From the NCBI GenBank assembly GCA_947581795.1, contig CANPVS010000008.1, positions 1-64,000 of the forward strand: 64,000 bases of DNA. Direction: 5' to 3'. Positions within the stretch are counted from its first letter, which is position 1, and every line of letters begins with the position of its first letter. This document shows, one piece after another, positions 5,319-64,000 of the stretch. The notes under the pieces were generated by a model. It did no database searches and had not been told where the DNA came from. It saw nothing but the letters and a program-made list of their open reading frames with translations. This DNA comes from an uncultured Oscillospiraceae bacterium. GTDB taxonomy: Bacteria > Bacillota > Clostridia > Oscillospirales > Oscillospiraceae. A program made the translations under genes and the position numbers.

Positions 5319-5388
5319 TGCAATTCAGGTCGTGTTTTTGGGGATTCGGGACAAAAGTATTGACAAATGCCCCGGATGTTTCAATAAT
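5319..5388 (+). promoter_or_regulatory. promoter with LytTR/ComE-like direct repeats
   Basis: TTGACA (5360-5365), a 17-base spacer and AATAAT (5383-5388) form a sigma-A promoter. Upstream are two 9-base direct repeats, GCAATTCAG (5320-5328) and GGGATTCGG (5341-5349), separated by exactly 12 bases and ending 10 bases before the -35. Forty of the 47 bases in 5319-5365 recur at 63527-63573 with the same geometry. This is the layout known for ComE/BlpR-type response regulators; the regulator itself is not in the window. Confidence 0.7.
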
Positions 5389-5431: not shown

Positions 5432-5629
5432 ATGAGCGAGGATAAGATCATCAACGAGCAGGAACTGGAAAACGTCTCCGGCGGCAGCGCCGGCTTGGAC
5501 GTGCTGTTCGTCAAGGCCAATTGCGCGGGCTGCGCCAATGACAAGGGCGGGAAATGCCCCCACAAGGCGGCCATGGCCGCCCAGGCGCTGAAGCAGGGGA
5601 ATGTCACCATGTGCACGTTCAGATCGTGA
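5432..5629 (+). CDS. Gly-Gly-leader peptide with four cysteines
   Basis: A 65-residue small peptide with a bacteriocin/pheromone-type leader. Residues 1-18 (MSEDKIINEQELENVSGG) carry the ExELExVSGG pattern recognised by PCAT/ComA-type peptidase-transporters, with cleavage expected after G18. The predicted 47-residue mature part has four cysteines (C31, C34, C42, C61) in a CxxC...C...C arrangement, a hydrophobic start (LDVLFV) and a basic middle. It could be a disulfide- or metal-containing bacteriocin, a signal or a RiPP precursor; no modifying enzyme or transporter is nearby. Its ribosome binding site is AAGGAGG. The promoter resembles that of the peptide locus at 63.6 kb. The secreted dipeptidase gene starts 38 bases after its stop and is probably co-transcribed. 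Confidence 0.75.
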   Translation: MSEDKIINEQELENVSGGSAGLDVLFVKANCAGCANDKGGKCPHKAAMAAQALKQGNVTMCTFRS

Positions 5630-5666: not shown

Positions 5667-6404
5667 ATGAAAAAACTGTCCAAACGGCTTGGGGCGCTGG
5701 CGCTGACGGCGCTCATGCTCCTGGGCGCGTGCCCCGCGCTGGGGCTGGCGGCGGAGAGCGTGTCCCCGGATGACGCGTCGGGGTTCGTCTCCCTGGCGGA
5801 GGCGGTACCCGACGTGATACTGGAGATACGATACTACTCTACATACAACTTCGTGGGCGACAGAATCGACGGCTACGAGGAGCCCTGCGCCCTTCTCACC
5901 AAGGAGGCCGCGGAGGCCCTGCAGGCGGCGGCCGCCGACGCGGAGGAGCAGGGCTACCGCCTGAAGGTCTACGATGCCTACCGGCCTCAGATGGCCGTGG
6001 ACAATTTTGTGGAGTGGGCGGAGGACGTGGACGACATCCGCATGAAGGAATACTTCTACCCGGAGCTGGATAAGTCCGTCCTGTTCGACCAGGGATACAT
6101 CGACGCCAAGTCCGGTCACAGCCGGGGCAGCACCCTGGACCTGACCCTCTTTGACATGGACACGGGCAAGGAGCTGGACATGGGCGGCACCTTCGACTAC
6201 TTCGGCGAGCTGTCCCACCCGGACTACGTGGGGGACCTGACGGAGAAGCAGATCGAAAACCGCAATACCCTGCGGGACATCATGGTGGATAACGGCTTCC
6301 GGCCGCTGGACACGGAGTGGTGGCACTTCACCCTGGAGGAGGAGCCCTATCCGGATACATACTTCACTTTCCCGGTCACCAGCGACTCCGTCGCTGCCGG
6401 CTGA
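5667..6404 (+). CDS. secreted M15 D-Ala-D-Ala dipeptidase (VanX-like)
   Basis: Secreted zinc dipeptidase of 245 residues, expected to cut D-Ala-D-Ala or related wall peptides. Residues 1-29 are a signal peptide (KKLSKR, then LGALALTALMLLGACPALGLA). A lipobox reading LLGAC is imperfect, so lipid attachment is uncertain. The VanX motifs are all present and correctly spaced: R106 in DAYRP, H151 and D158 in SGHSRGSTLDL, E217 and H220 in EWWH. Start ATG 5667 has GGAAAGGAAGG upstream. VanX itself is cytoplasmic; the signal peptide here suggests a wall-remodelling or defensive role outside the cell. It lies downstream of the Gly-Gly peptide and its quorum-type promoter, so it may belong to that regulon. 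Confidence 0.88.
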   Translation: MKKLSKRLGALALTALMLLGACPALGLAAESVSPDDASGFVSLAEAVPDVILEIRYYSTYNFVGDRIDGYEEPCALLTKEAAEALQAAAADAEEQGYRLKVYDAYRPQMAVDNFVEWAEDVDDIRMKEYFYPELDKSVLFDQGYIDAKSGHSRGSTLDLTLFDMDTGKELDMGGTFDYFGELSHPDYVGDLTEKQIENRNTLRDIMVDNGFRPLDTEWWHFTLEEEPYPDTYFTFPVTSDSVAAG

Positions 6405-27961: not shown

Positions 27962-29038
27962 GGCCCTCGCCCTCCTTTCGGCGGATGTCCGCCCGGGCCT
28001 TCCGGCGCTGGGACCCGGCCCGCAGGGAGGCGAAGATGCCGCTTTCGGCGGCCATAAAGAAGATAATGACCGTCTGGATGATGAGGTAGATCTGGTTGGG
28101 CACCCCGGCGGACAGCTCCATGCCCTGGGCGCCTATTTTCAGCACCGCGAAGAAGAAGGAGAGGAAGATGACCGTCACCGGGTCGTAATGGGCGATCATG
28201 GCCACGGTCAGGCCCTCGAAATAGTACTGGTTGCTGATGCTGGAGCGGTAGAGGTGCTCCACGCCGTAGACCCGGAACATGCCCACCAGGCCGCACATGG
28301 CGCCGGAGATGACCATGCAGACGATGACGATCTTGTCCGTCTTGATGCCGGAGAAAAAGGCGAAGCGGGGGTTCTGGCCGGTGAGCTTCATCTCGTAGCC
28401 CACGGAGGTCTTCTGCATGACATACCAGGTCAGGAAGGTGATGACTATGGCGGCGACGATGGCGGTGGAGAGCCCGGAGCCGGGGATGAGAGTCTTGAAC
28501 CAGAACCGGGGGTCCAGCTTTTCCGTGGCGGCCACCATGTTCTTGTTGGCGTTTTTCCAGGGGCCCTTGGCCAGGTACTGGCAGATGCTGGCGGCGATGG
28601 TGTTGAGCATGATGGTGGTGATGACCTCGTTCACCTTCACTTTCACCTTCAGCCAGCCAGGGATGAGGGCGTAGAACCCGCCCACGGCCATGGCCGCGAG
28701 AGCCGCCGCCGGGATGGCGATCCAGGCGGAATAGCCAGCCAGCCACACGCCCACCTGGCAGGACACCACCGCGCCGAGAAGCAGCTGGCCCTCGCCGCCC
28801 ACATTGAAGATGCCAACCCGGGAGCCCAGCACGCAGGCAAGGCCCGTGAGACACAGCACCATGGCGTATTCCAGAAAGTCGCCGATGTGCCGGGCGTTGG
28901 AGAAGGCCCCGTCCACCATGGCGGCGTAGGCCTCCAAGGGGTTGAATCCCGCTATCACCAGAATGACCGCGCCGATGGCGAAGGCCAGCAGCACGCTGAT
29001 AAGAAGGCTCACCAGATAGCCCCAGTTGAATCTCTTTT

Positions 29039-63526: not shown

Positions 63527-63596
63527 TGCATTTCAGGTCGTGTTTTCTGCAATTCGGGACAAAGTTATTGACAATGGCCCAAGTTAGGCTGATACT
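63527..63596 (+). promoter_or_regulatory. promoter with LytTR/ComE-like direct repeats
   Basis: The direct repeats GCATTTCAG (63528-63536) and GCAATTCGG (63549-63557) are separated by 12 bases and end 10 bases before TTGACA (63568-63573). A 17-base spacer leads to GATACT (63591-63596), with TATAA just beside it. The layout and 40 of 47 bases match 5319-5365. Confidence 0.7.
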
Positions 63597-63628: not shown

Positions 63629-63812
63629 ATGACTGACGAGAAGAAAACCTTGCGGGGGGGGGTTAACCCCGGAACAAAAGAACACCGCCCTGGATGAGGA
63701 CACCCTGGAGGCCGTCTCCGGCGGGATGACGTCGCGCGACTGGGCGGAAAGTTCCTGGGACTGGTTAGAGGAGATGCTCGGCGCGAATTATGATAAGGAG
63801 CAGCAGCCATGA
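63629..63812 (+). pseudogene. Gly-Gly-leader peptide, out of frame at a G9 run
   Basis: Small secreted-peptide gene interrupted by a run of nine G (63654-63662). Read as written from ATG 63629 it stops after 22 codons. With eight G it encodes 60 residues: a leader of 32 residues ending LDEDTLEAVSGG, then a 28-residue acidic, tryptophan-rich core (starting MTSRDWAESSWDW) ending at the TGA that overlaps the next start. AAGGAGG precedes the ATG. The run could be a phase-variation switch, a decayed gene or a sequencing error. Codon pattern and leader on both sides show that the gene is otherwise intact. Confidence 0.72.
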
Positions 63813-64000
63813 GCGAGGAGAAAAAGGCTGCTGCCCTGGACGAGAGCGCCCTGGACGCCGTGACCGGCGGCACCAATGGGTTTGGCCCGCTCAATAGGTT
63901 TTCCGGGAAAAGCCAAGACGAAATAATGCGGCAGCTCGGGGACCAGGCCAATCAGCAGCTGAGGGATATTCTCCAGCGTCAGGGCGAAGAGAACGAGCCA
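63809..64000 (+). CDS. Gly-Gly-leader peptide, runs off the window
   Basis: The first 64 codons of a small peptide gene whose end lies beyond the window. The leader (residues 1-21) ends LDESALDAVTGG, like its neighbour's LDEDTLEAVSGG. The mature part starts TNGFGPLNRFSGK and continues as a polar, Gln-rich helix (QLGDQANQQLRDILQRQG). AAGGAG precedes ATG 63809, which overlaps the previous stop as ATGA. The pair may be a two-peptide bacteriocin or a peptide-signal pair; the precursor type is clear, the function is not. Confidence 0.7.
   Translation, partial: MSEEKKAAALDESALDAVTGGTNGFGPLNRFSGKSQDEIMRQLGDQANQQLRDILQRQGEENEP

Follow-up and report, generated by a model that had tools for sequence, protein, structure and literature searches.

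We describe a promoter box in a 64,000-nucleotide stretch of an uncultured gut Oscillospiraceae bacterium (the window, C8:1-64000 of a genome of 2.29 Mb, 84% complete, in 62 contigs). The window holds two copies, and these belong to a genome-wide set of 16 sites, most of which lead into genes for Gly-Gly-leader peptides. One member of the set stands upstream of a gene run that ends in a GHKL membrane kinase, whose neighbour on contig C16 is a LytTR response regulator. We consider it likely, from the sequence, that the box is bound by this C16 regulator, paired with the adjacent kinase in a circuit that would hold whatever the inducer.

The two window copies (boxes A and B) are identical at 40 of 47 positions, and in each, two 9-base repeats are separated by 12 bases and followed, after a gap of 10 bases, by TTGACA; direct comparison confirmed this description, first given in the initial annotation of the stretch. 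A −10-like hexamer follows each.

5319..5365, + strand: box A, repeats GCAATTCAG (5320-5328) and GGGATTCGG (5341-5349), −35 TTGACA (5360-5365)
5383..5388, + strand: −10-like hexamer AATAAT of locus A, 17 bases past the −35
63527..63573, + strand: box B, repeats GCATTTCAG (63528-63536) and GCAATTCGG (63549-63557), −35 TTGACA (63568-63573)
63591..63596, + strand: −10-like hexamer GATACT of locus B, 17 bases past the −35

Scanning the genome with a 30-base core pattern, at up to three mismatches, gave 16 sites, and the reversed pattern, used as a control, gave none, which supports the proposed chromosomal regulon, with many more units than two. All 16 sites extend to one 46-base box, with consensus TGCAATTCRRGTCGTGWTTTTGTCGATTCGGGACAMAGCSRTTGAC and 28 of its 46 columns invariant. 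TGCA ahead of the pattern and TTGAC behind it are invariant throughout (16/16), though neither was part of the search pattern. The half-boxes, CAATTCRRGTC and CGATTCGGGAC, are spaced 21 bases apart. At all 16 sites, two direct repeats of about 9 bases, separated by a 12-base spacer, lie about 10 bases ahead of the −35. A 46-column matrix made from the 16 genomic copies, boxes A and B among them, scored these two at 70.9 and 69.2; among the 127,910 window positions, both strands counted, the next best scored −17.1. Mean identity in 14 pairs with genome G014 was 43.6 of 46 positions in the box, 35.7 upstream and 40.1 downstream, a comparison biased by pattern-chosen boxes and some paralog pairs, which carries no weight as proof.

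The genome encodes four LytTR proteins. The one on C16, of 239 residues, has a receiver domain (PF00072, 39.1 bits) and a LytTR domain (PF04397, 55.8 bits), both above cut-off, and its gene is adjacent to and convergent (tail-to-tail) with that of a 633-residue GHKL membrane kinase; PF14501 (GHKL) was found in all 13 aligned kinase orthologs. The C16 box lies 2.1 kb before the kinase start, and the interval holds, all on the kinase strand, five Gly-Gly peptide genes found by scan, another found by eye, and a CxxC protein. The linkage recurs in close orthologs. Among 14 loci with a regulator or kinase of at least 70% identity (10 from genomes of the genus, plus L156, L159, L160 and L172), 12 carry the box, and all 11 that hold both box and kinase have a co-oriented box upstream of the kinase, at 0.3-2.4 kb in six and 3-9 kb in five. 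At L112 and L113 the box leads straight into a 61-residue CxxC protein and then the kinase, and L114 has box and regulator on a contig without the kinase. No box was found at L160 and L172, whose contigs stop 3.7 and 5.8 kb upstream. The initial annotation had placed regulator, kinase and exporter outside the window, and there they were found, the C16 regulator and GHKL kinase linked to the box. Nor did the scan return a box spread genome-wide ahead of unrelated genes, and the genome was lacking in neither a LytTR regulator nor a peptidase-containing exporter.

Two further observations concern this region in other loci. At L118 and L119, whose regulators are 59-62% identical, TTC-N17-TTC-N12-TTGACA stands at the expected place, about 0.1-0.2 kb upstream of the kinase; it scores below 10 by the matrix and is perhaps a strongly diverged box. 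The kinase genes of L160 and L167 have an internal stop near residue 142-147.

Within the genus, 9 of 35 genomes carry the box, in counts of 23, 16, 14, 8, 4, 4, 3, 2 and 1. A C16 regulator (at least 70% identity) is present in eight of the nine and in two of the other 26 (Fisher p 1.6e-5), and those two, G022 and G018, have diverged boxes ahead of their kinase genes. CAGG stands in the second repeat at 25 of 26 sites in G009, G012 and G034, against 0 of 39 in G000 and G014, the genome-wise shift one would predict if the box sequence of each genome were set by a single binding protein. Box, genomic set, target genes and the regulator–kinase–box linkage can be read directly from the sequence. 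Box matches in G035 and G039 (three mismatches each) were judged to be chance; the reversed control gave single matches in 3 of 149 genomes. Outside the genus, a longer pattern matched five of 400 family genomes, namely this genome, three of the same genus and G476, of another genus and with six box sites, while its reversed control matched none. G119, of another family, has a single box without mismatches, perhaps through a binning error or transfer. A contig collection, searched for the kinase by means of two short peptide patterns, yielded 18 loci, every one in metagenome-assembled genome records labelled ‘Lapin’ and 14 of them recorded as uncultured Oscillospiraceae bacterium; ‘Lapin’ we take to mean rabbit. 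Among the matches listed in the open-access literature, we found no description of this regulon.

Judged by eye, Gly-Gly-leader peptides are the first genes at 11 of the 16 sites. At one site the box is followed by a radical SAM enzyme (Pfam PF04055, with SPASM-type models among its NCBIfam matches, far below cut-off) and then by a Gly-Gly peptide with CxC motifs. The other four lead larger proteins: an SH3-NlpC/P60 protein, a Sel1-repeat lipoprotein, a GH3-family protein and a secreted-type protein for which no Pfam match was found. The range of targets is thus broader than a peptide regulon alone. A list made by hand over 12 box-led runs counts 27 Gly-Gly peptides, with two to six of them in each of six runs, and omits three out-of-frame first peptides and one short C31 open reading frame (ORF) with an unclear leader start. 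At least four Cys, in CxxC..C..C-like order, are present in 23 of the 27, and four have no Cys; six of the 27 were scanned, with no Pfam or NCBIfam match above cut-off. The first peptides at C1, C7 and C8 resemble one another, and several units look like recent paralogs. In relatives, many non-peptide sites lead secreted-type proteins and, in G027 and G031, the kinase operon itself.

Some individual targets deserve mention. In six genomes (L043, L056, L059, L064, L120 and G014 C2:27253) a box stands ahead of an SH3-NlpC/P60-type secreted protein (VTLMPGVTPEM..), a set assigned by sequence resemblance, the domain scan having covered this genome's copy; the protein appears to be a conserved non-peptide member of the regulon. 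The box-led GH3-family protein, enzyme-like and of 580 residues (L185:9894-11636, C29), starts with MSEERKIQRGGVNP, as do the leaders of several peptides. Behind the box-led radical SAM enzyme, L017:1837-2676 (C31) encodes a glycine-rich Gly-Gly precursor with repeated CxC, possibly a modified peptide.

Several box-led peptides have runs of 7 to 12 G where their leaders are encoded, often within GGGGTTAACCCC; downstream of boxes they were noticed at 63654-63662 in the window and at L037, L040, L052, L076, L136, L137, L148, L150 and others. Their length varies among orthologs (9 in the window, 10 in L137 of G014), and start codon and Gly-Gly leader share one frame at L052 and L148 and are out of frame in the window copy, L137 and L076. 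Such tracts look phase-variable.

We propose that an external ligand would switch on the 633-residue kinase, which would phosphorylate the C16 regulator. With the two repeats 21 bases, or two turns, apart, the phosphorylated regulator would bind both on the same face of the DNA, next to the −35, and recruit polymerase; from this fixed place immediately ahead of the −35 it would activate promoters of the housekeeping type. Expression of the kinase operon and of the peptide units would rise together, and since a box lies upstream of the same-strand gene run ending in the kinase, the system should self-amplify. Other boxes would turn on the dispersed Gly-Gly peptides (mostly with at least four Cys), the larger proteins and the radical SAM enzyme; leaders would be cut after Gly-Gly and the peptides exported by the sole C39-peptidase ATP-binding cassette (ABC) exporter found. 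For binding, activation, self-amplification, export and inducer, this scheme borrows from LytTR systems of like geometry (PMC6193735, PMC2766830, PMC4739728).

What the kinase might sense can be approached through its predicted structure. Residues 36-195 are confidently predicted as a beta-sandwich, extracellular, with the first helix before it and about seven more after it. Because a fold search with the whole kinase in effect probed its catalytic part, the sensor domain was folded alone; structure prediction and fold search then gave a large extracellular beta-sandwich of carbohydrate-binding-like fold, with middling scores. The catalytic domain is AgrC-like, AgrC being the closest solved structure. 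Receptors of the HPK10 design have membrane helices and are not known to carry a large extracellular domain. In 7TMR-DISM sensor kinases, seven membrane helices come after an extracellular beta-sandwich of DISMED type. The topology of our kinase agrees with the latter in a model of moderate quality, and Foldseek lists the RetS sensor domain (E 3.8e-3); in the 13 kinase members, no Pfam match to DISM-type domains was found at E up to 1. Of the HPK10-type kinase with its own box, anticipated by the initial annotation, we recovered the box-linked GHKL kinase with its AgrC-like catalytic domain and could not establish the HPK10 design.

A Gly-Gly-leader, Cys-patterned peptide with a conserved core, single-copy in this genome, is encoded immediately ahead of the kinase at 8 of 13 close loci. 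The invariant positions of nine aligned sequences include two Phe, a CxxC pair, Y-x2-LL and a final RC-x-RR. We regard this peptide as the best pheromone candidate, with a putative signalling role.

The genome yielded one C39-peptidase protein, an ABC exporter on C12, which adjoins two Gly-Gly peptides and an ABC subunit matching TIGR03797 at 699.1 bits, just under the cut-off of 709.4. A peptidase-containing transporter was therefore correctly foreseen. No box was found within the 16 kb of this cluster, which we ruled out as a box target. Across the genus, five of nine box genomes and nine of the other 26 have C39 exporters, whose presence thus does not follow that of the box, and the export step is the weakest link of the mechanism. 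The C12 cluster also holds a protein resembling GH3 (by eye), and G022 has a second C39 peptidase domain near the regulator, about 1.5 kb away and on the other strand (C8:26108-26497 and 27971-28684).

Several observations weigh against the proposed circuit or against its induction by a peptide. The circuit is predicted from sequence. At L110, L111 and L115 the box first enters an NlpC/P60-like gene and the kinase lies 4-9 kb farther, which makes theirs a neighbourhood link only; L156 and L159 have extra boxes, on the opposite strand or past the kinase; one of six distant kinase loci (51-62% identity) has a matrix-detectable box; and G033 (73% complete) has one box and no C16 ortholog. The peptide share is lower in relatives, where a regular expression found a Gly-Gly peptide within 450 bases of 25 of 62 sites and within 1.5 kb of 29 of 62, counts that are too low where peptides are out of frame or otherwise missed (one at C62) and that include two sites probably due to chance. 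No C39 exporter was found in four of the nine box genomes (G007, G009, G012 and G033; G012 is 93% complete). The large extracellular domain predicted for the kinase departs from the classic peptide-receptor design of HPK10, and 5 of the 13 kinases lack the candidate peptide ahead of them. The third Cys of this peptide is not fully conserved, being lost in L156, and the distant L171 has a related core without a preceding Gly-Gly, even from an upstream ATG, which counts against a simple pheromone role. Finally, we rejected co-occurrence by itself as proof of the C16 regulator, because the C10 regulator correlates with the box as well (7/9 vs 2/26, p 1.7e-4); the C26 regulator does so weakly (5/9 vs 2/26, p 0.006).

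This correlation, together with one box 8.4 kb from the C10 regulator in this genome, could mean that another LytTR regulator (C10 type), or several jointly, binds the box. We think this improbable: that box is the sole one at nine C10 loci, none having been found near the regulator in 8/8 loci of relatives (10-16 kb each), and no C10 regulator was found in three genomes, G007, G018 and G022, whose box (diverged in G018 and G022) accompanies the C16 type. The C26 regulator, like the C10 one a receiver-LytTR protein, has a box at 0 of 5 loci, taken from five of the seven genomes carrying it; in the C1 LytTR protein no receiver domain was matched. Still less credible to us is a box without a dedicated regulator, that is, a mobile or duplicated promoter cassette carried with peptide genes and constitutive or driven by a sigma factor. 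The near-identical −35, the regular −10 and the recently paralogous look of several units (the similar first peptides at C1, C7 and C8) would suit such a cassette, but the constrained sequence ahead of the −35 spans 35 bases, with a period of 21 bases, unrelated genes (GH3, NlpC/P60, Sel1, radical SAM) bear the same box, and the second repeat changes in concert across genomes.

A serious rival shares the circuit and differs in the inducer. The kinase may sense a non-peptide, glycan-like ligand (e.g., a dietary or host glycan) through its beta-sandwich, the peptides being outputs without quorum sensing, and we hold this to be possible at somewhat under an even chance. The structural scores behind it are middling and a fold does not reveal a ligand; moreover, the exported-type peptide with a conserved core sits directly upstream of the kinase, at the majority of loci, as a pheromone gene would. 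For an exported peptide as inducer of the C16 circuit, the one encoded next to the kinase being the best candidate, we put the chances at about even or slightly better, and the predicted beta-sandwich could bind another ligand instead. For the input side there are thus two good readings, quorum sensing being one: of the quorum-sensing peptide regulon first proposed, the regulon and its kind stand, while quorum sensing itself is not established, given the large extracellular beta-sandwich. We also entertain, as a speculation that is more doubtful than either, a partly phase-variable, genome-wide arsenal of Cys-patterned leader peptides in gut Oscillospiraceae, released as one programme by the LytTR regulator, with a kinase whose carbohydrate-binding-like domain reads an extracellular ligand, possibly a glycan. 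If so, diet or host sugars, beyond cell density alone, would set the timing of peptide production, and poly-G runs in some leaders would vary the peptide repertoire cell by cell.

The proposed C16 circuit has relatives among known systems. ComE/BlpR of pneumococcal com and blp and streptococcal SilA likewise join a LytTR response regulator to a membrane kinase. They have two 9-10-base direct repeats with an 11-12-base spacer ahead of the promoter, and bacteriocin-type peptide targets with some units outside the main cluster, such as blpK (PMC2766830, PMC4739728). Our system differs from them in the large extracellular beta-sandwich of its kinase, in peptide genes that are far more dispersed, in a regulator gene convergent with the kinase gene and in an unlinked exporter. 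ComD/BlpH-type kinases are not known to have a large extracellular beta-sandwich, nor are com and blp peptides known to have the four or more Cys seen in most peptides here. The repeat geometry is also common to the LytTR Regulatory Systems HdrRM and BrsRM, which have 9-12-9 repeats, commonly 10 bases ahead of the −35, and a positively autoregulated regulatory operon (PMC6193735). Those systems pair the regulator with a membrane inhibitor and no kinase, whereas the regulator here has a receiver and a histidine kinase as partner. Staphylococcal agr (AgrA/AgrC) shares the LytTR regulator and the nearest solved structure to the catalytic domain; unlike in agr, the peptides here have Gly-Gly leaders, which indicates C39 export. 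NHLM/NHLP bacteriocin export clusters resemble the C12 cluster in their C39 exporter, near-cut-off TIGR03797 ABC subunit and two Gly-Gly peptides, and the C12 cluster bears no box. Within this genome, the C26 regulator and its own kinase adjoin Gly-Gly peptides whose leader differs (..ADEALDAVAGG), with no box (L021 98-6514), probably a parallel circuit with its own site, in which case the genome would hold more than one such circuit.

The 46-base box is a handle on about 27 leader peptides in one genome, a likely regulator and kinase, and a specific pheromone candidate. Two family libraries named none of the six peptides tested, and the box gives precise access to such peptides. With one two-component system over many dispersed exported peptides, peptide signalling or competition in uncultured Oscillospiraceae would become directly testable in laboratory hosts.

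The genes behind the two window boxes are as follows.

5432..5629, + strand: Gly-Gly-leader peptide of locus A, 65 residues, four Cys
5667..6404, + strand: peptidase M15 (D-Ala-D-Ala dipeptidase family; Pfam PF01427, E=1e-42) with a signal-like N-terminus, the next gene after the 5432-5629 peptide
63629..63697, + strand: first ORF of locus B, 22 residues in this assembly, ended by an early stop
63809..64000, + strand: Gly-Gly-leader peptide of locus B, 64 residues, no Cys, its stop codon just beyond the window end

The locus A peptide had sub-cut-off matches only (Pfam Bacteriocin_IIc, 16.2 vs 27.1 bits; TIGR01847, 15.1 vs 15.7 bits), and the M15 gene, by its position, probably shares its operon. 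Gly-Gly peptides had been claimed for both loci, and this is true of 5432-5629 and of the gene from 63809 on; the first ORF of locus B, at 63629, is left out of frame with the downstream Gly-Gly leader by the G9 run at 63654-63662. After the 63809 peptide, outside the window, comes another Gly-Gly peptide with four Cys.
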